IMG/VR virus record: IMGVR_UViG_3300044213_000170
Coordinates: 81,401 to 145,400 of that record
Length of the DNA stretch: 64,000 nt
Direction: 5' to 3' (one strand)
From: a virus
The notes under the pieces were generated by a model. The model saw nothing but the letters and a program-made list of their open reading frames with translations, ran no database searches and had not been told where the DNA came from. Position numbers and translations under genes: made by a program. Each line of letters opens with the position of its first letter. The first letter of the stretch is position 1. Shown piece by piece: positions 1 to 44,400 of the stretch.

Positions 1-75
1 TGGCAGGGGGTTAGGGAATCGAACCCTATCACCTACGGTCAAAGCGTAGTATCTGCTCCAATCGATTTACCCCCA
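1..75 (-). tRNA. tRNA-Gln (anticodon TTG)
   Basis: Read on the minus strand this is a full cloverleaf with an encoded CCA end, a T-loop of the TTCGATT type, and a CTACG/CGTAG anticodon stem holding the loop CTTTGAC, so the anticodon is TTG. The 1-72 pair is U-U, comparable to the weak first pair of bacterial tRNA-Gln. It lies at the left edge of the window. Confidence 0.9.
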
Positions 76-88
76 ACTGATCTGAAGT

Positions 89-123
89 GTTGCTTATTCT
101 ATACAATGTACAATATAAGCAAC
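89..123. repeat. Inverted repeat between tRNA-Gln and tRNA-Trp
   Basis: GTTGCTTAT (89-97) and ATAAGCAAC (115-123) are perfect 9-bp inverted arms around a 17-nt AT-rich centre. It sits between two co-oriented tRNA genes and could be a processing hairpin in their common transcript. No U-tract follows, so it is not an obvious terminator. Confidence 0.5.
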
Positions 124-159
124 AGTTTGTTGGTCTCGCATAATGCGAATTATAAAACT

Positions 160-236
160 TGGCGACCCCGGATGGATTTGAACCACCGACATTTGGTTTT
201 GGAGACCAACGTTCTGCCAGACTGAACTACGGAGCC
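160..236 (-). tRNA. tRNA-Trp (anticodon CCA)
   Basis: Minus-strand cloverleaf with encoded CCA, T-loop TTCAAAT, and anticodon stem TTGGT/ACCAA around loop CTCCAAA, giving anticodon CCA. Confidence 0.92.
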
Positions 237-243
237 ATTAAAT

Positions 244-334
244 TGGCGGAGGGCTAGAGAGTCGAACTCTAAAGGCGCTATTAACGCTCGGCGGTTTTCA
301 AGACCGTTACCGTCACCAATCGGCTTGGCCCTCC
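244..334 (-). tRNA. tRNA-Ser (anticodon TGA)
   Basis: A 91-nt class II tRNA with a long variable arm, acceptor GGAGGGC/GCCCTCC, discriminator G and encoded CCA, all typical of serine tRNAs. The anticodon loop CTTGAAA gives anticodon TGA. Confidence 0.92.
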
Positions 335-460
335 ATTTTGTGATTGTCGTTACGGGGTTTACCGTACCTGAAACTAGTCCCACCGCTTGCCAATCTTACT
401 GAATGGACCTATAGACTTATGTGGCGCTTCCGTGCATTCTCATTACACTATGACAAAACT
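335..460. other. Spacer in the tRNA array
   Basis: About 126 nt between tRNA-Ser and the next tRNA-like element. I find no canonical cloverleaf, promoter of consensus quality or credible reading frame here. It could hold a small structured RNA, but nothing specific can be supported. Confidence 0.4.
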
Positions 461-538
461 TGGCGCAGACCAAAGGACTCGAACCTTTGCGGGAATCTAG
501 AATGCGGAGGACATGCCCCCTACCCCTCCATTATCTGC
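461..538 (-). tRNA. tRNA-like element, non-canonical anticodon arm
   Basis: The acceptor (GCAGAT/GTCTGC), an encoded CCA end and a perfect T-arm (AAAGG, TTCGAGT, CCTTT) are clear on the minus strand. The D-arm cannot be drawn normally. The best anticodon hairpin (GCATG/CATTC, loop TCCTCCG) lacks U33, and the variable region is about 11 nt. It may be a decaying tRNA, an atypical phage tRNA or one needing unusual folding. I do not assign an amino acid. Confidence 0.5.
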
Positions 539-545
539 ATTAACT

Positions 546-621
546 TGGTGCCGTCGCCATGAATCGAACACGGGACCTTCTCATTACAAGTGAGTTGCTC
601 TACCAACTGAGCTACAACGGC
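546..621 (-). tRNA. tRNA-Thr (anticodon TGT)
   Basis: Canonical minus-strand cloverleaf with acceptor GCCGTTG/CGACGGC, discriminator A and encoded CCA. The anticodon loop CTTGTAA within a CTCA/TGAG stem gives anticodon TGT. Confidence 0.93.
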
Positions 622-630
622 TTTAATAAA

Positions 631-709
631 TGGCGCACCGTACGAGATTCGAACTCGTGATCTCCGCCGTGACAGGGCGGCGCCTTAGGCCAGACTGAGC
701 TAACGGTGC
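631..709 (-). tRNA. tRNA-Asp (anticodon GTC)
   Basis: Minus-strand cloverleaf with acceptor GCACCGT, discriminator G, encoded CCA and anticodon stem CCGCC/GGCGG holding loop CTGTCAC, so the anticodon is GTC. Confidence 0.94.
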
Positions 710-714
710 AAATT

Positions 715-790
715 TGGCGCTCGGTAGGGGAATCGAACCCCTCTTCCCGCCGTGAAAGGGCGGTGTCCTAGACCGATAGACGAACCGAGC
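715..790 (-). tRNA. tRNA-Glu (anticodon TTC)
   Basis: Minus-strand cloverleaf with acceptor GCTCGGT/ACCGAGC, encoded CCA and anticodon stem CCGCC/GGCGG around CTTTCAC, giving TTC. It is only 5 nt from tRNA-Asp and shares its anticodon-stem sequence. Confidence 0.94.
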
Positions 791-798
791 ATAATATC

Positions 799-869
799 TT
801 GAGACGGTGGAATCAAACCACTCTAGTCAGCATCTTCTCTGTGAAGATGCCCGTAATCATACTCCTCAA
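799..869 (-). tRNA. tRNA-like element without CCA or normal D-arm
   Basis: On the minus strand TTGAGGA pairs with GTCTCAA as an acceptor-like stem with one mismatch and one wobble, and a GTGG/CCAC stem carries a T-loop-like TTTGATT. The central hairpin is an 8-bp stem (GCATCTTC/GAAGATGC) with a 5-nt loop, not a normal anticodon arm. The D-region is only about 12 nt and CCA is not encoded. It directly follows the large stem-loop at 873-939 in the direction of transcription. Confidence 0.4.
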
Positions 870-872
870 AAT

Positions 873-939
873 ACTATATGTAAGTACACTACTCATCGGC
901 TGTGCCATTTGACTGTTCGGCAATGTACTTGCATATAGT
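873..939 (-). ncRNA. Large stem-loop (16-bp arms), putative structured RNA
   Basis: The arms 873-888 and 924-939 are complementary over 16 positions with one wobble, enclosing a 35-nt loop. A consensus sigma-70 promoter at 1023-1051 points into it, so it should be strongly transcribed leftward together with the tRNA-like element at 799-869. There is no reading frame of note. It may be a processing signal or a small RNA. Confidence 0.5.
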
Positions 940-1022
940 TTAGGGCTGTGGTCACTTTCGACTTAACATTTAACTAAGGCTTTCTTTATGCATTTATATC
1001 CTTAGCACCCTTCTTAAACATT

Positions 1023-1051
1023 ATTATAAAAGAAAATACTTTTATTGTCAA
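1023..1051 (-). promoter_or_regulatory. Consensus sigma-70 promoter upstream of the stem-loop RNA
   Basis: The minus strand carries TTGACA (1051-1046), a 17-nt spacer and TATAAT (1028-1023). Transcription would start near 1016 and run into the stem-loop and tRNA-like region. Confidence 0.8.
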
Positions 1052-1059
1052 CTATGTAG

Positions 1060-1140
1060 TGGATGCGGTTGGAGTCGAACTTACTCATCCGAAGAAACTG
1101 GGTTACAGCCAGCCACACCTCTCCAACTGTGTCGCACTTC
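1060..1140 (-). tRNA. tRNA-Tyr (anticodon GTA), first of two, weak acceptor
   Basis: A class II cloverleaf with anticodon stem CTGG/CCAG around CTGTAAC (anticodon GTA) and a variable arm containing TTCTTCGGATGA. The CCA is present, but the acceptor stem pairs poorly at its end. It closely resembles the tRNA-Tyr just to its right, so it looks like a diverging duplicate. Confidence 0.75.
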
Positions 1141-1148
1141 CATTAATT

Positions 1149-1234
1149 TGGTGGGTAAGGATGGATTCGAACCAACTCATCCGAAGGAAAGAGATTTACA
1201 GTCTCCCGCGCCTCTCCAACTGCGCCGCTTACCC
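1149..1234 (-). tRNA. tRNA-Tyr (anticodon GTA), second copy
   Basis: A class II tRNA with a perfect acceptor GGGTAAG/CTTACCC, discriminator A, encoded CCA and anticodon stem GGAGA/TCTCT around CTGTAAA, giving GTA. It has its own promoter at 1244-1272. Confidence 0.94.
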
Positions 1235-1243
1235 ATAGTACAT

Positions 1244-1272
1244 ATTATATCGAAAAAAATAATTTTCGTCAA
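1244..1272 (-). promoter_or_regulatory. Sigma-70 promoter for the tRNA-Tyr pair
   Basis: The minus strand has TTGACG (1272-1267), a 17-nt spacer and TATAAT (1249-1244), ending 10 nt before the tRNA 5' end. The -35 region abuts the U-tract of the tRNA-Ala terminator. Confidence 0.75.
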
Positions 1273-1273
1273 C

Positions 1274-1311
1274 TAAAAAAAAAATAGCCGTAAACTTGTT
1301 AAGGCTATTTT
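1274..1311 (-). terminator. Rho-independent terminator after tRNA-Ala
   Basis: AAAATAGCC (1281-1289) and GGCTATTTT (1303-1311) form a 9-bp hairpin. On the minus strand it is followed by a run of T, directly downstream of tRNA-Ala. Confidence 0.8.
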
Positions 1312-1314
1312 GTT

Positions 1315-1389
1315 TGGTGGAGGATAGCGGGGTCGAACCGCTGACTGAAGCTTGCAAAGCTACCGTGTTCCCAACTATACCAATCCCCC
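1315..1389 (-). tRNA. tRNA-Ala (anticodon TGC)
   Basis: Minus-strand cloverleaf with acceptor GGGGGAT/ATCCTCC, discriminator A and encoded CCA. The anticodon loop TTTGCAA gives TGC; the anticodon stem GTAGC/GCTTC has one T-T mismatch. Confidence 0.88.
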
Positions 1390-1400
1390 CGATAACTTAT

Positions 1401-1574
1401 TTATTCTTCTTTGCCACGCTTGGTGGACTTTGCCAACCGATTATTAGTTTCAATCATCTTAGTATACATTTTGAAATACTCGCGACGATCGGTATTGTTT
1501 AAAATCCTTGCAGCACGGCGCTTAACCGCTTTAGGCATTTTTATTGCTTTAATGTCATATCCTCTACAGGTCAT
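1401..1574 (-). CDS. Small basic protein in the tRNA array
   Basis: A 57-residue reading frame from an ATG, very rich in Lys and Arg (for example KAVKRRAARI near the middle and KSTKRGKEE at the end), with composition typical of a real nucleic-acid-associated phage protein. The frame stays open upstream to about 1682 without a standard start codon, and the translated extension (acidic, with SDKPEDTELQ) also looks protein-like. The true start may therefore be a rare codon, or the N-terminus may have been lost by mutation. The upstream context GAAAG is only a weak ribosome-binding site. No family recognised. Confidence 0.55.
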   Translation of the reverse strand: MTCRGYDIKAIKMPKAVKRRAARILNNTDRREYFKMYTKMIETNNRLAKSTKRGKEE

Positions 1575-1730
1575 TTTATTTCTTTCAAAAATAATTAATT
1601 GTAGTTCAGTGTCCTCAGGTTTATCACTGATGTTTAGACGTTCAGAGCCGGACTTCCTAACGTCGAGTTCTTCCAGGACTTGTTACTCGGGCTACTAAGC
1701 CAGGTGCTCCTTTTCAGCTACCGCCCAAAA
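1575..1730. other. Interval upstream of the small basic ORF
   Basis: Contains the startless in-frame extension of the small basic ORF (to about 1682) and then about 50 nt with no recognisable gene. No clear cloverleaf or consensus promoter was found. Confidence 0.4.
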
Positions 1731-1819
1731 TGGACAGTGGGGAGTTGAACCCCCTCCTGCTTTACACTAGTTCAACGTTCGAACATCTTACTAATGTGCT
1801 TTTCACTTGCTAACACTAC
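1731..1819 (-). tRNA. tRNA-like element, about 89 nt
   Basis: The 3' part has a GGGG-TTCAACT-CCCC T-arm and ends in TCCA; GTAGTG at the 5' end can pair with CACTGT using two wobbles. The anticodon region has a GTTC/GAAC hairpin with loop GAACGTT that lacks U33, so no identity can be given. Size fits a class II tRNA, but the fold is not convincing. Confidence 0.35.
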
Positions 1820-1824
1820 AAACT

Positions 1825-1900
1825 TGGTCTCCGTAGAAGGATTTGAACCTTCACCGCATGGTCCCAAACCATGAACGCTACCGGGTTACGCTATACGGAG
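1825..1900 (-). tRNA. tRNA-Pro (anticodon TGG)
   Basis: Minus-strand cloverleaf with acceptor CTCCGTA/TACGGAG, encoded CCA, anticodon stem CATGG/CCATG and loop TTTGGGA, giving TGG. The 3' end of the HNH reading frame (stop at 1886-1888) lies inside this tRNA's 5' end. Confidence 0.93.
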
Positions 1901-2331
1901 TTTATACTTTTCAACATAATCGTCTATAATGGGCTGAACCTCATTAACATAACGACTATGAACATAACTATGATGTGTAGGACATAAAGGAACTAAATTC
2001 GCAGGTTCATTGTTATCATGGTTGTGATCGTGATGATGCACTGCTACAATTTTATCTTCCTCACACACTACACACTTTTTATCGTGGTGTAAGAAGCAAA
2101 TGGATTGATACTTTTCGCCCTTCCAATTACCGTTACTTTCACCACTTCTAAAATGCTTGTTTGAACAACTTCTACTGCAAGTACCTTTAGAGTTCTTGAA
2201 GTCCTTAATAGGGGTCGAACATACTATACATTCTTTTATATTAACAGGATTTAGATAACAATTATCCTCGTGCCGTTTAATATTTTGTGGTTCGTTTCTT
2301 TACCGCAGTATTGACAATTAATATGTTTCAT
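1886..2331 (-). pseudogene. Frameshifted HNH endonuclease
   Basis: The reading frame starts at ATG 2331-2329 with a CxxC zinc pair (NCQYCGKE) and is interrupted by a one-base shift in the AAAGAAAC tract around 2291-2303. It continues in the next frame as NIKRHEDNCYLNP, a second pair of zinc-type cysteines, then an HNH core (CVVCEEDK, AVHHHDHNHDN, NLVPLCPTHH). Joined, it would give about 148 residues, the usual size of a free-standing phage HNH nuclease. Its C-terminus runs into tRNA-Pro. The intact part (from an ATG near 2068) keeps the core. A sequencing error cannot be excluded. Confidence 0.7.
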
Positions 2332-2400
2332 ACATTTATTTATCATTTAGCGCACAGAATGAGATATTCTCAAACAGACTGCTCTACACTCCGAAATCTC

Positions 2401-2476
2401 TGGTAGGACGTGACGGTCTCGAACCGCCGACATTCACGGTGTAAACGTGACGCTCTACCAACTGAGCTAACGTCCT
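2401..2476 (-). tRNA. tRNA-Val (anticodon TAC)
   Basis: Minus-strand cloverleaf with acceptor AGGACGT, discriminator A, encoded CCA, anticodon stem TCACG/CGTGA and loop TTTACAC, giving TAC. Confidence 0.94.
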
Positions 2477-2495
2477 ATATCTTTTACTTATGTTT

Positions 2496-2524
2496 ATTAT
2501 ACAGACACAAATAATAAATGTCAA
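2496..2524 (-). promoter_or_regulatory. Consensus sigma-70 promoter for tRNA-Val
   Basis: The minus strand carries TTGACA (2524-2519), a 17-nt spacer and TATAAT (2501-2496), 19 nt before the tRNA 5' end. Confidence 0.8.
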
Positions 2525-2629
2525 ATAATTTTTGCAATTTCCGGTGCAAAAACTGCACTTGCAAATGCTATATAAAATAATAATATCAACATACTCTAAT
2601 CCTCTAGACTATAGTATATTTAATATGTA

Positions 2630-2703
2630 TGGAGCGGAATATCAGAATCGAACTGATGACGTCTGCTTGGAAGGCAGTGGTTTTACCATTAAACTAATCC
2701 CGC
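2630..2703 (-). tRNA. tRNA-Gly (anticodon TCC)
   Basis: Minus-strand cloverleaf with acceptor GCGGGAT/ATTCCGC, discriminator T, encoded CCA and a CTGC/GCAG anticodon stem around CTTCCAA, giving TCC. Confidence 0.93.
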
Positions 2704-2713
2704 ATTTTATTCT

Positions 2714-2790
2714 TGGTGCCTTGACCTGGATTCGAACCAGGGACCTACGCCTTATCAAGACGGTGCTACTACCAGCTGAGCTATCAAGGC
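2714..2790 (-). tRNA. tRNA-Ile (anticodon GAT)
   Basis: Minus-strand cloverleaf with acceptor GCCTTGA/TCAAGGC, discriminator A and encoded CCA. The anticodon loop TTGATAA gives GAT. Confidence 0.9.
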
Positions 2791-2795
2791 CAATT

Positions 2796-2880
2796 TGGTG
2801 CCCCCCAAGAGACTCGAACTCTCACGCCTTGCGGCGCTGGAACCTAAATCCAGTGCGTCTACCAATTTCGCCAAAGGGGC
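2796..2880 (-). tRNA. tRNA-Leu (anticodon TAG)
   Basis: An 85-nt class II tRNA with acceptor GCCCCTT/GGGGGGC, discriminator A, encoded CCA, anticodon stem CTGGA/TCCAG and loop TTTAGGT, giving TAG. Confidence 0.93.
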
Positions 2881-2889
2881 AATGATGTT

Positions 2890-2966
2890 TGGCTCCTCGA
2901 CGTGGGCTCGAACCACGGACATCTTGATTAACAGTCAAGCGCAACTACCAACTGTGCTATCGAGGA
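2890..2966 (-). tRNA. tRNA-Asn (anticodon GTT)
   Basis: Minus-strand cloverleaf with acceptor TCCTCGA/TCGAGGA, discriminator G, encoded CCA, anticodon stem CTTGA/TCAAG and loop CTGTTAA, giving GTT. Confidence 0.94.
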
Positions 2967-2985
2967 ATAAAATTCAACAGTATAT

Positions 2986-3015
2986 ATTATATATGCGATA
3001 TAAATTTGCTGTCAA
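2986..3015 (-). promoter_or_regulatory. Consensus sigma-70 promoter for tRNA-Asn and the tRNAs beyond it
   Basis: The minus strand carries TTGACA (3015-3010), an 18-nt spacer and TATAAT (2991-2986), 20 nt before tRNA-Asn. It probably drives the Asn-Leu-Ile-Gly group as one transcript. Confidence 0.78.
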
Positions 3016-3021
3016 GTATTT

Positions 3022-3109
3022 TAGAACACACTAGTGATTCGACCTAGTAAATGGGCCCGCCACAATAGTTTATCGTTCTATCGGCCGAGTTATTCGTCTA
3101 ATGTGCTCT
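3022..3109 (-). tRNA. tRNA-like element without CCA
   Basis: AGAGCAC (minus, 3109-3103) pairs with GTGTTCT (3029-3023) over 7 bp, and a T-arm-like ACTAG/CTAGT stem carries GTCGAATCA. The central CGATAG/CTATTG hairpin has a 9-nt loop instead of 7, and CCA is not encoded. I cannot assign an identity. Confidence 0.4.
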
Positions 3110-3116
3110 AAAATAC

Positions 3117-3154
3117 CTTCTTATTAAGAAGATATGTTAGGGTTGTACCCTAAC
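3117..3154. repeat. Two adjacent small hairpins
   Basis: CTTCTTATTAAGAAG (3117-3131) and GTTAGGGT/ACCCTAAC (3136-3143 with 3147-3154) are perfect inverted repeats side by side, lying upstream of the tRNA-like element in the minus direction. Their role is unknown. Confidence 0.5.
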
Positions 3155-3296
3155 CAGTTATCTGTACTTTGCTGTTATCGCCAGCATTTCATCCAACTGT
3201 CCGCCCATTTGTCACATTTTATATGGCGTTGTGTGCTGGCTCGCGTTGCCTTATCACGCCGAAAATTAACAATAGTCAATTTTCTTTTTACATAAA

Positions 3297-3326
3297 CAAA
3301 AACCCCAGGGTGTTTAATCCTGGGGT
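3297..3326 (-). terminator. Rho-independent terminator
   Basis: ACCCCAGG (3302-3309) and CCTGGGGT (3319-3326) form an 8-bp GC-rich hairpin, followed on the minus strand by TTTTTGTTT. It closes the short transcript that starts at the promoter at 3506-3534. Confidence 0.85.
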
Positions 3327-3351
3327 CCTTAGAGTGGTTGTAGTGTTGTTT

Positions 3352-3495
3352 TTACGCTACAATGTCCCCCTGGACCCCGATCTTAATCTCCGGTGTACGA
3401 TCATTATGATTTCCAGTAACCATACACCAAGAGGCAGACATCGCCTGTCTCTGTTTGGCATAAAAGTTTACTGATGATGATAAAATCGTGTTCAT
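3352..3495 (-). CDS. 47-residue hypothetical protein or small RNA
   Basis: A 47-residue frame with ordinary protein composition (VNFYAKQRQAMSASW, NHNDRTPEIKIG, ending GDIVA). It is bracketed by a perfect sigma-70 promoter (3506-3534) and a strong terminator (3302-3326), so a monocistronic RNA of about 200 nt is expected. The -10 box ends only 10 nt before the ATG, leaving no room for a Shine-Dalgarno site. The transcript would be nearly leaderless if translated, or it is a small RNA. No family recognised. Confidence 0.5.
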   Translation of the reverse strand: MNTILSSSVNFYAKQRQAMSASWCMVTGNHNDRTPEIKIGVQGDIVA

Positions 3496-3505
3496 GATGT
3501 TTTGT

Positions 3506-3534
3506 ATTATATGTTATTTATACTTTGTTGTCAA
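3506..3534 (-). promoter_or_regulatory. Consensus sigma-70 promoter of the short transcript
   Basis: The minus strand carries TTGACA (3534-3529), a 17-nt spacer and TATAAT (3511-3506). Confidence 0.82.
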
Positions 3535-3575
3535 GAAGTTTTGATTATGTTGTAAAAATACAACAAATTAAAATT

Positions 3576-3660
3576 TGGTGCGCCTAGCCGGAATCGAACC
3601 AGCATGACCGAAGTCGGGAGATTTTAAGTCTCCTGTGTCTACCTATTTCACCATAGGCGC
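3576..3660 (-). tRNA. tRNA-Leu (anticodon TAA)
   Basis: An 85-nt class II tRNA with acceptor GCGCCTA/TAGGCGC, discriminator A, encoded CCA, anticodon stem GGAGA/TCTCC and loop CTTAAAA, giving TAA. Confidence 0.94.
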
Positions 3661-3680
3661 ATTTGTTTTGCAATAACTCT

Positions 3681-3709
3681 ATTGTAGCAATATTTCTATT
3701 TATTGTCAA
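3681..3709 (-). promoter_or_regulatory. Sigma-70 promoter for tRNA-Leu(TAA)
   Basis: The minus strand carries TTGACA (3709-3704), a 17-nt spacer and TACAAT (3686-3681). Confidence 0.78.
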
Positions 3710-3729
3710 CAATATTTTGTTGTTATTTT

Positions 3730-3821
3730 TGGTACCAGCGGAGGGGATCGAACCCTCTCAAGAACGCTAATCTGGCGCTAAAAGTCTTATAAGGACTCTC
3801 TGACTTCCAAGTCTCGCTGGT
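3730..3821 (-). tRNA. Class II-type tRNA with TAT anticodon
   Basis: A 92-nt element with acceptor ACCAGCG/CGCTGGT, discriminator A and encoded CCA. The anticodon arm is canonical (GAGTC/GACTT, loop CTTATAA with U33), giving TAT, which would read AUA. The T-arm GAGGG/CCCTC is good. Unlike bacterial isoleucine tRNAs it has a long variable arm (AGCGC/GCGTT stem), and its D-arm is short (GACT-TGGA-AGTC) and lacks U8. Long arms normally mark Leu, Ser or Tyr tRNAs, so the charged amino acid is uncertain. Confidence 0.7.
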
Positions 3822-3826
3822 AAAAC

Positions 3827-3903
<77 letters not shown>

Positions 3904-3912
3904 GATTTTTCT

Positions 3913-3941
3913 ATTATATGTTATTCTGCATTTATTGTCAA
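3913..3941 (-). promoter_or_regulatory. Consensus sigma-70 promoter for the tRNA CAT/TAT pair
   Basis: The minus strand carries TTGACA (3941-3936), a 17-nt spacer and TATAAT (3918-3913), ending 10 nt before the tRNA. It overlaps the 3' end of the methyltransferase gene. Confidence 0.82.
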
Positions 3942-4859
3942 TGACAAATTATTTATTGCATCTATCTGCTGAAATCGTAAATCCATCTTAGTAAACATAG
4001 AAGTATCTTGTTCGATTAAAATGCATCGACGATTTTTGTTAGATGCAGCAATACCAGTGCTTCCACTGCCCGCAAAAGTATCCAACACCATATCACCAGG
4101 TTTGGATAACAATTCAATAAAGTACTCTAACACTTCAGTAGGCTTTTGTGTGGGATGAATTTTATCTTTGCCCAATCCGCCGCTATAGGTAATTGTGTTA
4201 GGAATAACACATTCGATCAATCCGTTTGATCTTTTGCGATCAGCCAACATCTTTTTACTATCAGCTAATGCCTTAGCAAACGCCTTGTCGATTGGTATAC
4301 CTTGAGAGATATATTTGTATACGATACTGCTGACTTTGTCTGCCGCCGCATAACGCTCAACCATAGATCCTTCAGTCGCATCTGCATTAAATGTTCTAGA
4401 GCCCTTGGGTTTAATGCCGAACAAAACGTATTCACAGCCACTTACTGGATTTACTCGACGATTGAATGGGACTGCTGCAGGTTTTTTCCAAGTCCATACA
4501 CGCTTAGACTCAAACCCAGCGTCGTTCATTGCGGTAATGAGATAACTTAAATATCTATCACTGATAAAAATTGCAAAACTTCCGCCCTTACGAAGTTTTG
4601 TAAACCACATCCTTGCCCAATCATTTAACTGTTGTTGGAATTCTTCATGACCAACATCGTCCCAGTCGTTATCAAATTCTTCACTGAAATTTTGATTATG
4701 GATTGTTGTTTTATTTTTGCCGGTTTCCTTGTCGAGCCAAATTGGATTTGCACCGTTTTTACTGATATTGTAAGGCGGATCTGTCAACAACAAATCAATC
4801 GAAGAATCGGGTATTTGATGTGCAATTGTCAAACAATCGCCGTTTAATCTAGTAATCAT
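3921..4859 (-). CDS. DNA methyltransferase (DPPY type, beta class)
   Basis: Transfers a methyl group from S-adenosylmethionine to an exocyclic amino group of DNA, most likely adenine N6. The catalytic motif TDPPYNIS lies near residue 27 and the SAM-binding motif DTFAGSGSTGIAA near residue 270, the order of beta-class enzymes; HPTQKP precedes it. I chose the ATG at 4859 (312 aa) because the longer frame would start with TTG inside the -35 box of a perfect promoter. The mRNA from that promoter would be almost leaderless. It lies directly after the 495-residue protein with an endonuclease-like motif. The role could be protection from host restriction, or partner to a nuclease; the target sequence cannot be predicted. 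Confidence 0.9.
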   Translation of the reverse strand: MITRLNGDCLTIAHQIPDSSIDLLLTDPPYNISKNGANPIWLDKETGKNKTTIHNQNFSEEFDNDWDDVGHEEFQQQLNDWARMWFTKLRKGGSFAIFISDRYLSYLITAMNDAGFESKRVWTWKKPAAVPFNRRVNPVSGCEYVLFGIKPKGSRTFNADATEGSMVERYAAADKVSSIVYKYISQGIPIDKAFAKALADSKKMLADRKRSNGLIECVIPNTITYSGGLGKDKIHPTQKPTEVLEYFIELLSKPGDMVLDTFAGSGSTGIAASNKNRRCILIEQDTSMFTKMDLRFQQIDAINNLSLTINAE

Positions 4860-4866
4860 AAATGTG

Positions 4867-4895
4867 ATTATACAATAATTTGGATTTATTGTCAA
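4867..4895 (-). promoter_or_regulatory. Perfect sigma-70 promoter of the methyltransferase
   Basis: The minus strand carries TTGACA (4895-4890), a 17-nt spacer and TATAAT (4872-4867). It overlaps the stop codon of the upstream gene, and only 7 nt separate the -10 box from the ATG at 4859. Confidence 0.85.
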
Positions 4896-6379
4896 TATAC
4901 TATCATAAACCCTGGTAAATTATTACCGGGCATATGACTAGGGGCGTGATATTGGAATTTAAACTTTAAATCGGTGAACGGTTTCGCTGATGCAACTACT
5001 CCCCCCTCATCAGTGATATCCAATCTCCCCAAATATGCAGAACTTTGATTGACTACATTGGTCATCATTTTTGCATATTCTTCTGCATCAGGTCCTTTGG
5101 TCACTGCATTTAACGTGCCAACACCCAATGCATAAGTTAATATGTCTGTTGCAGCTTTAACTGGATTAGCTTTGAAACTAGGATATCCTGCTTCTTTTTC
5201 GGCGGCCTTGTCTTTTTTCATACCCATATAGAACTGACCGTCGGCAGGTAATCCTACAGGTCTTCCCCAAGGACCAGCAACCATTATTGGATAGATTGCC
5301 TTTAAGAAATCTCCGTAGTCTGTTGCACTATTGCCTTTTACTAAGGATTTCACTAAATTTTGAAGTGACGTCCAGTTATCAAATTCTCCGCCAAGGATCT
5401 CTACGGCTTTTTTATATTCAGGAATCTTAACAAAATTTGCAGCTTTTACCAACTTATCGACGTTCTTGCCGCCGGCATTAGGATGATATGCTTTAAATAA
5501 AGCAAATAGCTTTTCTTGTGTACTATCTTTCTTAATGGTTTTTTCAAAGTTATCCATTAAATCACTAATACTTCTGAAGCTAGTGCCACTACCTGTTAAA
5601 CTTTTAACACTAAACTTTGTAGAACCAACAATTACATCAACTAAAGGAAAATTGCCCTCGGCCGGAAATTCAATTGATTGATTGCCTTTAGCAAACATTA
5701 TAGGTGCTAATATTTCTCCAAAGTCTACACTCAATTGATTTCTTGCTCTATCAGTCAAATGTCGATTTACTTCCGGATCTAATGTAGTGTTGCCGCCACT
5801 GGCTGCTACATTAACTAAACCCAATAATATTTGCATTAATTCGGGACGAGTTTTTGTTTTTGCTAAGACTGCTTGTTGCGTAGCAGATATTAATTCGTCT
5901 TTTGTATATATTTTACCGGCTAACCCTAATGTTGTAGGTGTAAACTCTTTAATGCTTACACTAACGCCAGTCTCATCTGTCTTTGCACCAGAGCTAGCAA
6001 CAACCAGTGTATAAATTACTGTATTAACTACATTGTCCGCAGTATCATTGCCTTGTGGAGGTTTATTTGCTGATATAGGAGTGGCGCTTGTTTCGAAACT
6101 TAGAATATTGTTTCTATATTTGCCGCTGATTGCAGCCTGTTCAGGTTCTATTGGCAGGGAATCTAATCCATGCGATTGAAAATATTGCTTAATCGCTTGT
6201 TTCTCTGCTCCGAATATACGAATATAAAATACAGGGCTAATATTTTTTTTCTCCACTGCAAATCTGTAGTCAGGCAGTTGTTCTTGCAAATTTTTTGCAA
6301 GAGCCTGTGTTTCTGCGCGGGTCGCATATCGCGCCGCTACATCTAATTCTTCAGATATTGTTATTTCGTTAAATCTCAT
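4892..6379 (-). CDS. Putative PD-(D/E)XK-like nuclease with capsid-targeting-like N-terminus
   Basis: A 495-residue protein of no family I can name. The N-terminus MRFNEITISEE resembles the short T4 capsid-targeting peptide, which ends in (I/L)-X-E and is cut by the prohead protease. In the middle, E222 in a predicted helix (SVDFGEILAP), D248 (FPLVDVIV) and S257-V-K259 (KFSVKSLTGSG) are spaced like the helix-Glu, Asp and (E/S)-X-Lys set of restriction-endonuclease folds. The rest is low-similarity alpha/beta sequence. It lies immediately upstream of a DNA methyltransferase with abutting ends. It could be a head-packaged nuclease, a restriction partner, or a structural protein in which the motif is chance. 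Confidence 0.5.
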   Translation of the reverse strand: MRFNEITISEELDVAARYATRAETQALAKNLQEQLPDYRFAVEKKNISPVFYIRIFGAEKQAIKQYFQSHGLDSLPIEPEQAAISGKYRNNILSFETSATPISANKPPQGNDTADNVVNTVIYTLVVASSGAKTDETGVSVSIKEFTPTTLGLAGKIYTKDELISATQQAVLAKTKTRPELMQILLGLVNVAASGGNTTLDPEVNRHLTDRARNQLSVDFGEILAPIMFAKGNQSIEFPAEGNFPLVDVIVGSTKFSVKSLTGSGTSFRSISDLMDNFEKTIKKDSTQEKLFALFKAYHPNAGGKNVDKLVKAANFVKIPEYKKAVEILGGEFDNWTSLQNLVKSLVKGNSATDYGDFLKAIYPIMVAGPWGRPVGLPADGQFYMGMKKDKAAEKEAGYPSFKANPVKAATDILTYALGVGTLNAVTKGPDAEEYAKMMTNVVNQSSAYLGRLDITDEGGVVASAKPFTDLKFKFQYHAPSHMPGNNLPGFMIVY

Positions 6380-6512
6380 AATGAATGTCAGTTTAGTTTA
6401 TTTATTAAAAAACGTCAAGTTTGAAAATCTATTTCCCATATCAGTAGAAACCATAGGTTTTGTGCAATGCAACATAAATATATTAGTAGAAACACTGATA
6501 TAGGATAAGCAC

Positions 6513-6860: not shown

Positions 6861-6881
6861 AAAAGGGGCAATGCCCCTTTT
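6861..6881. terminator. Bidirectional rho-independent terminator
   Basis: AAAAGGGGCA (6861-6870) and TGCCCCTTTT (6872-6881) are perfect arms separated by one base. A-runs and T-runs on both sides let it work for the plus-strand mini-genes and for the minus-strand fusion gene ending at 6880. Confidence 0.85.
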
Positions 6882-7632
6882 ATTTTCTTTCTATGTCTTC
6901 TTCTATACAACTATCCCCGTATTGTATCTCTACTATTTTACAGGGCCAATCGTATGGGTTAATCAATTGATGCCAATGACCGACGGGTATATATACGCTC
7001 ATGTGTTGTTCTAGTTCTTTTGAGGGCAATGTATAACCATTATTCATCATGCTGTTTAATAGACATTTGCCCTCACTAACTAACCAAAATTCATTACGCT
7101 TAAAGTGTCGTTGCATACTTAGACTGCTGTACGGGTCAATAGTCAATTCCTTTACTTTACATCCATCTACTTCGTGTAATACACGATAGTATCCCCATTG
7201 ACGTTCTGTTTTTGGTGCTTTCCATTCTTGCAATATCCAGCTACTACTATTGGCTTTATTTTCGCCGCCGACGCCGAACATGAAAAGCACACCTTTACAA
7301 ATCATCTCAGGGATATTCAGTGCGGTTCGATCTCCCCCATTTGCAAAAATAATTTCATCGTTAGGATATTGGGTTTGCATTGCCCGAATAAACTCACAAG
7401 CACTGCCGTCGGCATCATCAAAGCCATATGCCGCATCAACTACGTCGATCGAACTAACGATTAGTTGTCGTTCATACAGTGGCATAAAGCTGCGGCCTTT
7501 CTTACGCTCAAGCCACTGATCGCTATTAACGCCTACTATAAGTTTATCACCAAGTGCTTTTGCCGCTTTAAAGTAAGCAATATGTCCGCTGTGTAGCGGA
7601 TCGAATCCGCCTGTTGTAAGTACTATTTTCAT
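6880..7632 (-). CDS. Nucleotidylyltransferase-cupin fusion
   Basis: The N-terminal ~130 residues are a cytidylyl/adenylyltransferase domain of the RfaE/TagD type, with the nucleotide-binding signature GGFDPLHSGH (residues 8-17) and NSDQWLERKKGR. The C-terminal ~110 residues are a cupin like the C-terminal part of type II mannose-6-phosphate isomerases (WGYYRVLHE, LSMQRHFKRNEFWLVSEG, VYIPVGHWHQLINP). The role is probably making or handling an activated sugar, in line with the distant glycan cassette at 34-41 kb. The neighbours are recombination genes, so the position is unrelated to its chemistry. The substrate is unknown. Confidence 0.8.
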   Translation of the reverse strand: MKIVLTTGGFDPLHSGHIAYFKAAKALGDKLIVGVNSDQWLERKKGRSFMPLYERQLIVSSIDVVDAAYGFDDADGSACEFIRAMQTQYPNDEIIFANGGDRTALNIPEMICKGVLFMFGVGGENKANSSSWILQEWKAPKTERQWGYYRVLHEVDGCKVKELTIDPYSSLSMQRHFKRNEFWLVSEGKCLLNSMMNNGYTLPSKELEQHMSVYIPVGHWHQLINPYDWPCKIVEIQYGDSCIEEDIERK

Positions 7633-14331: not shown

Positions 14332-14533
14332 GCTTTTCCCCGGTAAGATATGGTCTTGCAAACCAGAGTTTAAACCAGGCCTCTGTGCCTGGTTTAATTT
14401 TATGCTCTCGTTGTAATTTGGCTTTTTCTGTTCCAGTATAACTTATGTTATCCGGTTGGCCGATTTTATATTCTTGAATATTTGGGCGATTAGTAATGCC
14501 GGCTAGCAATTTAAGTTGTTGTAAATCATCCAT
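14324..14533 (-). CDS. Small hypothetical protein with LxxLAG motif
   Basis: 69 residues, starting MDDLQQLKLLAGITNRP, then a charged segment ending with an aromatic-rich tail (EAWFKLWFARPYLTGEKPI). The N-terminal LKLLAGI matches peptides in the 460- and 575-residue proteins. It overlaps the 3' end of the plus-strand HNH gene by 8 bp and touches the start of its upstream neighbour by one base. It is probably co-expressed with the morphogenesis operon; function unknown. Confidence 0.6.
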   Translation of the reverse strand: MDDLQQLKLLAGITNRPNIQEYKIGQPDNISYTGTEKAKLQREHKIKPGTEAWFKLWFARPYLTGEKPI

Positions 14534-14919
14534 TATACACCGTATTTGTTCTTTTTCTTTTTAGATACAGGACTGACTTTATTTACATTGCTTAATTCTT
14601 CGCTGCGATTAGAACTTAATCGCTTGACTTTGCCTGCGCCTACCATTTTAGCTGCCGCATTAACAATTTCTAATTCTTCGTCGGTATACGCACTCAATAA
14701 CGGATCTCCCGCGATCGCTCCTGTTGCAGCTGTAGGGAAATCCGGTGCACCGGCCATGGCCAATCCAAAACGATATCCGGCATATGGATTGCCATTTGAT
14801 TTATTTTGACTAATTCCAGGGACGCTCATTGCCCCTTTGATGGCCGCCACTTGTTGACTATCTAACTTTTCAAAATTAGCAGGAATATCTCCTTCAGTTA
14901 AAATTTCCGAAATCTTCAT
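14533..14919 (-). CDS. Hypothetical protein with capsid-targeting-like N-terminus
   Basis: 128 residues. Begins MKISEILTEGDIP, which has the length and (I/L)-X-E ending of a T4 capsid-targeting peptide. The body is Ala/Gly-rich (GLAMAGAPDFPTAATGAIAG) and the C-terminus very basic (SPVSKKKKNKYGV), as expected for a DNA-associated internal head protein. It overlaps the next gene by 4 nt. I cannot assign a named function. Confidence 0.6.
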   Translation of the reverse strand: MKISEILTEGDIPANFEKLDSQQVAAIKGAMSVPGISQNKSNGNPYAGYRFGLAMAGAPDFPTAATGAIAGDPLLSAYTDEELEIVNAAAKMVGAGKVKRLSSNRSEELSNVNKVSPVSKKKKNKYGV

Positions 14920-15347
14920 TTTTTCTTTCCTTCCGCCAGACCCTGCTGTGCTTGTTCAGCGGATCGAATTCGTTGCAATAAATGTTGCATTGGTGATTCT
15001 AAACTACGAGCACGACGTTCTGCATCAGTTAAATTCTGATCACGGTCTGCGTATTGCCAATTGCTACCACCTAACGATTCATATTCTTTTTTCATATTAT
15101 CGTATTCGGCTTTTAGTTTTGGTAATGATGCAATTAAATTCGAAATTTCTTTTTCTCTAGCTAACGCACGACCTCGGTCATCCCTTGCAGCGACACGTTC
15201 TAATCCACGACTTCGCTTATCAAATTTTGCTTTTGCTGCAGCACGTTGTTCTGCGCTAGGTGCAAATGCAGCGCCCATGCCTGCTTGTGCTTGTTGCATG
15301 CTTGCTTTTTTTCGATAATTGCCCAGGGTGACTTCGTTTATTTTCAT
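14916..15347 (-). CDS. Hypothetical coiled-coil, Lys/Arg-rich protein
   Basis: 143 residues, start MKINEVTLGNYRKKA, again a short amphipathic N-terminus. The rest is mostly helical and highly charged (RAAAKAKFDKRSRGLERVAARDD, LPKLKAEYDNMKKEYESLG), with a Lys-rich end. It overlaps both neighbours by 4 nt. A scaffold or internal head protein would fit its composition and position, but this is inference. Confidence 0.55.
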   Translation of the reverse strand: MKINEVTLGNYRKKASMQQAQAGMGAAFAPSAEQRAAAKAKFDKRSRGLERVAARDDRGRALAREKEISNLIASLPKLKAEYDNMKKEYESLGGSNWQYADRDQNLTDAERRARSLESPMQHLLQRIRSAEQAQQGLAEGKKK

Positions 15348-17084: not shown

Positions 17085-17675
17085 TTATTTGACCGGTGAA
17101 GGTATCTTGTTTTGTTTACTACCAACAGGGCTTAATTTTCCTTGTGGCATATCTGATGTTGTTTTTGCAGCCTGTGTTTTACCGCCTGCTGCTGTTGGCA
17201 TATGGTATGCACGAGCATTCATTAATTCTTTCATTAAGTTTTCTACTCGTTCCTCGCCCACTAATCCTTTGGAATCTTCTGCTTTTAATTCTGGTGTGTC
17301 TAATACAACATCACCATCCGGATTGCTAACTTCTTTGCCATCCATGATGGCTTCGATTGGGTGATCTGCAGGAGTGACGCGAATAGCAGATGGAGCGCAA
17401 CAGCCACATTCTGCAATTGCATTACGAATTTGATCATCGTTTGCTGGATAACAAACAGTAATGTCGAACATATTAATTTCGACTGGCCCCATATTCGGAA
17501 ACATTGGGCTTTCTTGAATTGGTAAACGTTTTGTATCAGTGATGGTTTCTACTTTATACACTCCCAATGATTGTTTAATCTTGGATTTCATTTCGTTAGT
17601 CATTTCACAGGCCAAACGAACTTTAAAAGTATAAGTTTTTTTGCTTTCCATCAAGTAAGATTTAAAAGACTTCAT
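17085..17675 (-). CDS. Hypothetical protein with capsid-targeting-like N-terminus
   Basis: 196 residues, starting MKSFKSYLMESKKTYTF; LME at positions 8-10 matches the prohead-protease consensus at the right distance. The middle is alpha/beta with a Cys-Cys pair (AECGCCAPSAIRV). The C-terminal third is low-complexity and Ser/Pro/Lys-rich. An ATAAATA element lies about 20 nt upstream. Its family is unknown to me; a virion-internal or head-associated role is inferred from the peptide and the neighbours. Confidence 0.55.
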   Translation of the reverse strand: MKSFKSYLMESKKTYTFKVRLACEMTNEMKSKIKQSLGVYKVETITDTKRLPIQESPMFPNMGPVEINMFDITVCYPANDDQIRNAIAECGCCAPSAIRVTPADHPIEAIMDGKEVSNPDGDVVLDTPELKAEDSKGLVGEERVENLMKELMNARAYHMPTAAGGKTQAAKTTSDMPQGKLSPVGSKQNKIPSPVK

Positions 17676-41416: not shown

Positions 41417-44400
41417 TTATAGTCTACCAATAACAACCTCGATGATGCCTGTTGTGCCGTTAAAGTCCTCTAGGGCTTTACCGATTACAGTACCAATCTT
41501 TGGATTAGCTTCAGCACGGGCCATTCCGTTACCAGCTGCAACCATCATATCACCTTTGCGTACTGTGCCTGTTACAAAACATGGTACACGACCGTGTAAT
41601 GCAACATCAGCTACGTACTCTGCATCCAACTCACTGTTCATTAAGTAAGATGGATTTGTAGTGATAACCCCTGCTACAGTTGTTACCATATCTTCAGCCG
41701 CTAATGTAACTTCATTAGTACCTCCGAAGCAAACTACTGTACCTGGTTGATAACGAGCATCTGCTACATAACGCTCTGCCAAGTCAGCGTAACGAGCGTT
41801 AACTGCTGTAACGTTTAATACGTTTGTACTTGGATTATAGTAGAAGCTACTAGCACCGTAAGCAGTTTGGTTAGAACCAGTCGCGCTTACAAATACTGGA
41901 TAGTAGTTTGCGTTTGTAGTTGTTGCTGTTGCGTTGATAATAGTGCTTGGACCTGCTGGACCTTGTGCACCAGTTGCACCTGTTGGACCTTGTGGACCTT
42001 GTGGACCTGTTGGACCTTGTGCACCTGTTGCACCTGTTGCACCTGTTGCACCTGTTGCACCTGTCGGACCTTGTGGACCTTGTGGACCAGTTGAACCTTG
42101 TGCACCTGTTGCACCTGTTGGACCTTGTGGACCTTGTGGACCAGTTGGACCTTGTGCACCTGTTGCACCTGTTGCACCTGTCGGACCTTGTGGACCTTGT
42201 GGACCAGTTGAACCTTGTGCACCTGTTGCACCTGTTGGACCTTGTGGACCTTGTGGACCAGTTGAACCTTGTGCACCTGTTGCACCTGTTGCACCTGTTG
42301 GACCTTGCGGACCTTGTGGACCAGTTGAACCTTGTGCACCTGTTGCACCTGTTGGACCTTGTGGACCTTGTGGACCAGTTGAACCTTGTGCACCTGTTGG
42401 ACCTGTTGCACCTGTTGCACCTGTTGGACCTTGTGGACCTTGTGGACCAGTTGAACCTTGTGCACCAGTTGCACCTGTTGGACCTTGTGGACCTTGTGGA
42501 CCTTGTGGACCAGTTGCACCAGTTGAACCAGTTGCACCAGTTGCACCAGTTAGACCTTGTGGACCTTGTGGACCTTGTGGACCAGTTGAACCTTGTGCAC
42601 CAGTTGCACCTGTTGGACCTTGTGGACCTTGTGGACCTTGTGGACCTGTTGCACCTTGTGCACCTGTTGGACCTGTGCTACCTGTTGCACCCTGTGGACC
42701 TTGTGGACCTTGTGGACCTTGTGGACCTGTTGCACCTGTTGCACCTGTTGGGCCTTGTAGACCTGTTGCGCCAGTTGCACCCTGTGGACCTTGTGGACCT
42801 TGTGGTCCTTGTGGTCCTGTTGCACCAATTGGACCTTGCGGACCTGTACTACCTGTGTTACCAGTTGGACCCTGTGGACCTTGTGGACCTTGTGGACCAG
42901 TTGAACCTTGTGCACCTGTTGGACCTTGTGGACCTTGTGGACCAGTTGAACCTTGTGCACCTTGTGGACCTTGTGGACCTTGTGGACCTGTGCTACCAGT
43001 TGCACCTGTAGGACCTTGTGGACCTTGTGGACCAGTTGAACCTTGTGCACCTGTTGCACCTGTTGCACCTGTTGGACCTTGTGGACCTTGTGGACCAGTT
43101 GAACCTTGTGCACCTGTTGCACCTGTTGGACCTTGTGGTCCTTGTGGACCTTGTGGACCTGTGCTACCTGTTGCACCTTGTGCACCTGTTGGACCTTGTG
43201 GACCTTGTGGACCAGTTGAACCTTGTGCACCTGTTGGACCTTGTGGACCTGTACTACCTGTTGGACCTTGTGGTCCTTGTGGACCTTGTGGACCTGTGCT
43301 ACCTGTTGCACCTTGTGCACCTGTTGGACCTTGTGGACCTTGTGGACCAGTTGCACCTGTATTACCAGTTATACCCTGTGGGCCTTGTGGACCTTGTGGA
43401 CCTTGTGGACCTTGTGGACCAGTTGAACCTGTATTACCAGTTATACCCTGTGGGCCCTGTGGACCTTGTGGACCTTGTGGACCTTGTGGACCTGTTGCAC
43501 CTTGTGCACCTGTTGGACCTTGTGGACCTGTTGCGCCAGTTGGACCTTGTGGACCTTGTGGACCTTGTGGACCAGTTGAACCTTGTGCACCTGTTGGACC
43601 TTGTGGACCTTGCGGACCAGTTGAACCTGTATTACCAGTTATACCCTGTGGGCCTTGTGGACCTTGTGGACCTTGTGGACCTTGTGGACCAGTTGCACCT
43701 GTATTACCAGTTATACCCTGTGGGCCCTGTGGACCTTGTGGACCTTGTGGACCTTGTGGACCTGTTGCACCTTGTGCACCTGTTGGACCTTGTGGACCTG
43801 TTGCGCCAGTTGGACCTTGTGGACCTTGTGGACCTTGTGGACCTGTTGCACCTTGTGCACCTGTTGGACCTTGTGGACCTGTTGCGCCAGTTGGACCTTG
43901 TGGACCTTGTGGACCTTGTGGACCAGTTGAACCTTGTGCACCTGTTGGACCTTGTGGACCTTGCGGACCAGTTGAACCTTGTGGACCTTGTGGACCTTGT
44001 GGACCAGTTGAACCTTGTGCACCTGTTGGACCTTGTGGTCCTTGTGGACCTTGTGGACCAGTTGAACCTTGTGCACCTGTTGGACCTTGTGGACCTTGTG
44101 GACCTTGTGGACCTGTGCTACCTGTTGCACCTTGTGCACCTGTTGGACCTTGTGGACCTTGTGGACCAGTTGAACCTTGTGCACCAGTTGCACCTGTTGG
44201 ACCTTGTGGACCTTGTGGACCAGTTGAACCTTGTGCACCTGTTGGACCTTGTGGACCTTGTGGACCAGTTGAACCTTGTGCACCTGTTGGACCTTGTGGG
44301 CCAGTTGAACCTTGTGCACCTGTTGGACCTTGTGGACCTTGTGGACCTGTTGCGCCAGTTGGACCTTGTGGACCTTGTGGACCAGTTGCACCTGTATTAC

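Follow-up and report, generated by a model that had tools for sequence, protein, structure and literature searches.

Introduction

Among described viruses, the chloroviruses come closest to the arrangement reported here. In chloroviruses such as PBCV-1, the genes for a restriction enzyme and a DNA methyltransferase (MTase) are adjacent, and the restriction enzyme is present in the virion while the MTase is not. Degradation of host DNA starts within minutes of infection, and the packaged restriction enzymes are thought to be responsible (PMC7019647). An earlier reading of the present locus, made without database searches and called the sequence-only reading below, had stated that no similar arrangement was familiar; the chloroviruses provide one (PMC7019647). 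Both cases involve virus-borne, adjacent genes for a restriction enzyme and an MTase, the restriction enzyme of the present locus being a putative one that we call NUC. However, chloroviruses infect eukaryotic algae and have no T4-type capsid signal, whereas the carriers of NUC are tailed phages in which packaging is presumed. Unlike the chlorovirus enzymes, NUC belongs to a family without a database entry, and its carriers seem able to purge the site instead of methylating it.

Three other kinds of system share single features with the locus. The internal proteins IPI-III of phage T4 carry a short N-terminal capsid-targeting sequence, as NUC seems to, are injected with the genome and have anti-defence roles (PMC9026906, PMC12373910). 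Those T4 internal proteins that have been studied act as inhibitors of type IV restriction enzymes of the host, whereas NUC would be a restriction enzyme in its own right. Type II systems acting on CATG (NlaIII, and HpyI/IceA of H. pylori, PMC4450513) also pair a nuclease with an MTase, at the site probably recognised by NUC. They differ from the present pair in that NUC is phage-borne, represents a new nuclease family and can dispense with the MTase once the phage is without CATG. The denA and denB products of T4 destroy host DNA early in infection, which is the role proposed for NUC. Marine cyanomyoviruses have none of denA, denB and ndd, and it has been suggested that they use a method yet to be described (PMC2984593). 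The literature searched, which left subscription papers largely uncovered so that a precedent is possible, contained no precedent for a phage-packaged restriction enzyme or for CATG purging. The kinds of component are known; what appears new within that literature is how they are combined in tailed phages, the nuclease family, and the option of either methylating the site or erasing it.

NUC and its relatives

The window analysed here is a stretch of 64,000 nucleotides, positions 81401-145400 of the 145,400-base virus record IMGVR_UViG_3300044213_000170. NUC is encoded on the minus strand at 4892..6379 and was defined by its open reading frame, its relatives, an invariant triad and structure models. 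With very high probability it is an enzyme by which the phage cuts DNA at CATG. The sequence-only reading had assigned the region 4859-6379 to a protein of 495 residues; the length of 495 codons was right, the frame itself spans 4892-6379, and 4859 is where the MTase ATG begins. NUC had no sequence match in Pfam, PHROGs, NCBIfam, PADLOC or PDB. Viral contigs were scanned three times and genome contigs once, which revealed homologues at more than 100 loci, and clustering at 90% identity gave 36 representatives. In the phage collection, the one clear relative was in Phage C48C1 (Kyanoviridae; WJE87959.1), and structure and profile searches added the cultured Agrobacterium phage Atu_ph07 (AUZ94972.1) and protein p140 (T4-GC 841) of Synechococcus phage S-PM2. 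Many relatives have the gene order uvsX-gp41-NUC-DUF6267, and S-PM2 has a similar cluster. In close relatives NUC sits among uvsX-region genes, and part of the family is without an MTase and adjoins DUF6267.

Catalytic core and predicted fold

The sequence-only reading had proposed a PD-(D/E)XK-type core from the spacing of a few residues, and a check of the sequence located E222, D248, S257, V258 and K259 exactly as it had given them. The core comprises residues 216-263 (5591..5734, minus strand) and reads S-x-D-F-G-E222 ... F-P ... N ... D248 ... S257-V-K259-S ... G263, its columns being invariant or nearly invariant in two alignments and its predicted topology helix-strand-strand-strand-helix. 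PD-(D/E)XK nucleases conserve D ... [D/E/Q/S/N]xK and in many cases a further E on a helix. An alignment of 35 NUC sequences, with identities down to about 20%, has just 12 invariant columns, three of which are E222, D248 and K259; S257 is nearly invariant (>90%). The invariance of E222, D248 and K259 in 35 sequences is far beyond chance. The homologue of Atu_ph07 retains YGE...D...NVKSGSGSG and that of S-PM2 FFE...D...SVKS, while divergent homologues retain the FP...D...SxK part and several of them also the FGE part.

The model of a compact relative (L051, pLDDT 84.6) places E193, the equivalent of E222, on a helix at residues 181-203. Strands follow at 208-210, 222-226 (directly after D221, the equivalent of D248) and 229-237 (bearing S234-V-K236, the equivalent of S257-V-K259), and then a helix at 245-256. 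The modelled order would be alpha-beta-beta-beta-alpha with E in the helix and D and S-x-K on strands, as in PD-(D/E)XK enzymes. In a Foldseek search of this model against the PDB, the restriction enzyme HinP1I ranked first and several HincII entries followed, at E values of 0.02 and above; such a match, weak and non-significant, agrees with the assignment. The same search with the model of the window's NUC returned noise and no useful match. With the invariant triad, the predicted topology and HinP1I as the top, if weak, match, the proposed core gained support, and NUC almost certainly has a nuclease fold. It is a probable new family of PD-(D/E)XK type with CATG specificity. Membership in the Cfr10I/NgoMIV family, which the S-x-K motif had raised, was dropped: in that family the spacing from D to K is unlike the 11 residues found in NUC.

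Linkage of NUC to DNA methyltransferases

A beta-type N6/N4 DNA methyltransferase of 312 aa (PF01555) is encoded at 3921..4859 on the minus strand and starts 32 nt downstream of NUC. The sequence-only reading had named a beta-class MTase here, and the gene does carry an intact PF01555 domain (E = 5.5e-36). DPPY lies near the N-terminus and FAGSGSTG near the C-terminus, which gives the beta-type order. Most close relatives have an orthologue at the same place. As to the METHYLTRANSFERASE linkage, 8 of the 12 window-clade representatives have the MTase after NUC, and L010/L011, L017, L018 and L028 do not.

Linkage is also found in other parts of the family. L110, from another clade, has an MTase of the same type as the window's, 61% identical. 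A second type of PF01555 MTase lies 25 nt downstream of NUC in L117 and upstream of NUC, with a 4-nt overlap, in L076. In Atu_ph07, an adenine MTase of D12 type, a class assigned from motifs and annotation, lies upstream of NUC and overlaps it by 4 nt. The annotation of this gene ('ulcer associated adenine specific DNA') recalls the HpyI type, a likeness of annotation only. Three kinds of MTase, two PF01555 subfamilies and the D12 class, thus flank NUC on either side, and the tree implies that the linkage was gained or lost several times. In the first locus set, in which loci are partly redundant, 24 of the 27 recognised MTase genes were adjacent to NUC (p = 5e-15). Some carriers have an MTase elsewhere in the record (PF01555 in the records of L084, L088 and L089, D12 in C48C1). 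The idea that NUC always needs an MTase was dropped, as many records and lineages carry NUC with no MTase next to it.

CATG in carriers of NUC

Were NUC a restriction enzyme, its site would be expected to be intolerable for carriers that lack a modifying enzyme. In five NUC-positive records (G002, G003, G006, G007 and G009), no PF01555, PF02086, PF00145 or PF05869 gene was found. These records, of 88, 43, 57, 48 and 50 kb, each contain zero CATG, with 174, 123, 161, 150 and 156 expected from trinucleotides, respectively, or about 763 expected over 286 kb. CATG is the sole absent tetranucleotide in four of the five. In G007, the 48-kb contig of L034, GATC (182 expected) and AGCT (96 expected) are also wholly absent.

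MTase-positive records keep the site: observed and expected counts are 213/424 in the window's own record (G000), 74/404 in G001, 66/233 in G005 and 347/464 in G016. No CATG at all was counted in 36 of the first-round loci, and an MTase was seen in none of these, while all loci with an MTase have some CATG. The closest uvsX relatives that lack NUC served as a control: their 68 loci contain 2502 CATG versus 2543 expected (0.98), and one of the 68 has none. A Fisher test of these loci against the NUC-positive representatives without an MTase gave p = 4e-6, a value that ignores phylogeny. CATG is absent in several deep NUC lineages (L010/L018, L028, L034 and L041). At the locus of Atu_ph07, CATG is the most avoided tetranucleotide palindrome (17 of 40 expected). 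Exceptions are G012 (200/252) and G020 (149/393), both partial records in which no MTase of the four Pfam classes was found. Some CATG is kept in 12 of 21 representatives without a visible MTase, many of them short contigs. Sites of 5 and 6 bases were examined and gave no consistent pattern; CATG alone fits.

Since CATG is missing from five carrier records without an MTase, kept in those with one and present at normal frequency where NUC is missing, it is probably the target. We infer cleavage and methylation at this site and hold with high confidence that CATG is what NUC recognises. The MTase is predicted to methylate CATG and thereby protect it, and the carrier phage probably survives either by methylating CATG or by purging it. 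The restriction-modification-like pair that the sequence-only reading had suggested is supported by the recurrent linkage to different DNA MTases and by the contrast between zero CATG in five MTase-less records with NUC and normal CATG in relatives without it. That NUC and the MTase form a functional pair is, in our view, very likely.

Two divergent homologues at uvsX loci of the same phage group, with the FP...D...SxK core or a variant of it, are found where ACGT (L181, G023; 5 of 57 expected in 28.5 kb) and GCGC (L189, G024; 10 of 76 expected in 67 kb) are strongly avoided. These two cases are possibly NUC relatives with other specificities. The 153 kb of C48C1 (OQ984149) that were examined have no CCCGG and no CCGGG, where about 20 of each would be expected, and almost no ACCGGT.

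A candidate capsid-targeting signal

T4 internal proteins are packed via a 10-residue N-terminal sequence in which residues 4 and 7 serve targeting and residues 8 and 10 processing (PMC9026906). The N-terminus of NUC, MRFNEITISEE, has an I-x-E site formed by I-S-E at residues 8-10, and codons 1-10 (MRFNEITISE; 6350..6379, minus strand) are a candidate capsid-targeting signal with its cleavage site. The start motif M[KR][FILYM]x[EDQ][ILVM] occurs in 5 genes of the window's record, with 0.22 expected. Starts of the window-clade type, M[RK][FI]xE[I], are found on 8 of 35 NUC representatives versus 3 of 313 other genes. Distant members of the family have starts such as MKSFKVFLAEA, MKKFSTFLVEA and MINFKSYITEA, which fit the positions of the T4 signal, and a strict T4-type pattern is present on 9 of the 35 representatives. 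Outside NUC this pattern is found mainly on DUF6267 and a cytidylyltransferase; it is rare on other genes and never on uvsX or gp41. DUF6267 starts with MKLFEI in the window's record (G000:42219-43583, outside the window) and with MKTFKQYITEA-like sequences in the distant clade. The N-termini of NUC and DUF6267 thus co-vary between lineages, a behaviour to be expected if each lineage has its own head machinery to read the signal.

The MTases neighbouring NUC, that of the window included, have no capsid-type N-terminal signal. A capsid-type N-terminus is also lacking in the NUC of L117, L084 and L095 and in the S-PM2 homologue. A T4-type prohead protease (PF03420) is present in G001 and C48C1 and was not found in G000, possibly an incomplete record. 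The capsid-targeting-like N-terminus noted by the sequence-only reading was strengthened, at the level of sequence, by motif enrichment and by co-variation with DUF6267. Judged on these patterns, NUC is likely to be packaged in the virus head.

Further proteins with such starts were observed. In DUF6267 (PF19782; e.g., G000:42219-43583 and L034:6895-8145), K-x-D-G, motif I of DNA/RNA-ligase-like nucleotidyltransferases, is invariant in 29 aligned sequences; DUF6267 may be a second packaged enzyme. In S-PM2 (AJ630128, 103025-104804), two genes annotated in different frames each encode part of DUF6267, and the second runs on into a cytidylyltransferase; a frameshift, whether of the phage itself or of its record, or else a fusion would account for this. 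Cytidylyltransferase-like proteins near NUC or DUF6267 (L034:9169-10497, L048, L052 and C48C1 CDS0089) have T4-type starts (MKTYTEYLEEA...), and the window's own cytidylyltransferase at 6880-7632 is without one. Small proteins near structural genes at 14533-14919, 14916-15347 and 17085-17675 start with MKISEILTE, MKINEV and MKSFKSYLMES, respectively, and are candidates for further packaged proteins.

Promoters and timing

A promoter TTGACA-17-TATAAT with 12/12 matches lies at 4867..4895 on the minus strand, 7 nt from the MTase ATG. The NUC stop codon had been said to touch this promoter, and the TGA at 4892-4894 does fall inside the -35 box of the element running from 4895 to 4867. As the -10 box ends 7 nt before the ATG, the mRNA would be nearly leaderless. 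Similar elements follow NUC in L001, L002, L003, L006, L012, L015 and L110, and in L010, which is without the MTase, one precedes a tRNA-Met gene. Consensus-like promoters are as frequent as in shuffled sequence; there are only two 12/12 sites in the 6.9 kb examined.

Upstream of NUC lies a T4-late-promoter-like motif, AATAAATA (6399..6406, minus strand), identified from motif counts over the record. [TGA]ATAAATA occurs within 60 nt upstream of 16 of 137 genes of the record, with about 1 expected; several of these are tail-region genes. The motif precedes the tail sheath gene and does not precede uvsX, ssb or the MTase. GATAAATA or TATAAATA is found close upstream of NUC in several relatives. 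These elements suggest an early MTase and a late nuclease.

Proposed mechanism and alternative explanations

We propose that NUC is a PD-(D/E)XK restriction endonuclease that cuts unmodified CATG and is packaged and ejected, the phage being protected by an MTase or by loss of CATG; we give this explanation as a whole a probability of about 70%. The MTase would be made early from its own host-type promoter, stay out of the capsid and methylate CATG in the phage DNA. NUC would be made late, enter the prohead, have its leader removed by proteolysis and be ejected together with the phage DNA. On reaching the next cell, it would cut unmodified CATG, normally very numerous in the host chromosome, and phages without an MTase would be protected because every CATG has been lost. 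The purpose would be to destroy the host chromosome for nucleotides and takeover, and/or to destroy the DNA of rival phages. Packaging, ejection and purpose are what we infer; we regard destruction of host DNA by NUC as evenly balanced, and use against rival phages is equally compatible.

NUC and the MTase might instead form a CATG-specific pair that stays inside the infected cell, with NUC produced after infection to exclude superinfecting phages or degrade host DNA, and with an N-terminal peptide that is no capsid signal. Members without the signal (L117, L084 and S-PM2) and the place of NUC among uvsX-region genes in close relatives would fit such a pair, which we nevertheless regard as unlikely given the enrichment of the signal, its co-variation by lineage with DUF6267 and the late-type motif that precedes NUC and not uvsX or ssb. 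The neighbourhood could also point to a nuclease of replication or repair that processes recombination intermediates together with UvsX, the gp41 helicase and DUF6267, the last being a ligase-like protein with KxDG; the MTases would then be incidental. The gene order shared by many relatives, the similar cluster in S-PM2 and the invariant KxDG of the 29 DUF6267 sequences speak for this. It is nonetheless very improbable, as it leaves the CATG pattern and the repeated pairing with different MTases unexplained, and uvsX and gp41 are without the N-terminal signal.

Losing host restriction sites is a known phage strategy. The CATG pattern might accordingly reflect an NlaIII-like host restriction of CATG, evaded by methylation or by loss of the site, with a role of NUC unrelated to CATG; the additional absence of GATC and AGCT from G007 indicates that several selective pressures act on some records. 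However, the nearest uvsX relatives without NUC carry 0.98 of the expected CATG and one of their 68 loci has none, the site is absent in several deep NUC lineages, the MTases flank NUC itself, and divergent homologues come with strong avoidance of other sites (ACGT and GCGC). We consider host-driven loss improbable, and retain the reading of NUC as a packaged restriction enzyme.

If this reading is true, tailed phages share the chlorovirus strategy of carrying a restriction enzyme in the particle while protecting their own genome, and an unannotated nuclease family with probable sequence specificity is added. NUC might also account for how host DNA could be degraded by marine T4-like phages that have neither denA nor denB, a question raised previously (PMC2984593). 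A tetranucleotide missing from a phage genome could, moreover, reveal the target of the phage's own enzyme. The wider view, of a widespread family of restriction enzymes injected from T4-like heads that recognise different 4-bp sites from branch to branch (CATG, and perhaps ACGT or GCGC in some), with each phage made immune by a methylase or by an erased target, could in our judgement go either way.

Other features of the window

Directly downstream of the MTase, 17 tRNA genes occupy positions 1-3903 on the minus strand. The second perfect TTGACA-17-TATAAT promoter (3913..3941, minus strand) lies at the 3' end of the MTase gene, ahead of this cluster. In L010, tRNA-Met directly follows NUC, which makes the MTase look like a cassette placed between NUC and the tRNA genes. 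A protein of 1787 aa with collagen-like GPQGPQGP repeats is encoded at 41417-46780, and one of 3419 aa with AEASIAGDL-type repeats at 47322-57581; these long repetitive proteins are probably fibres.
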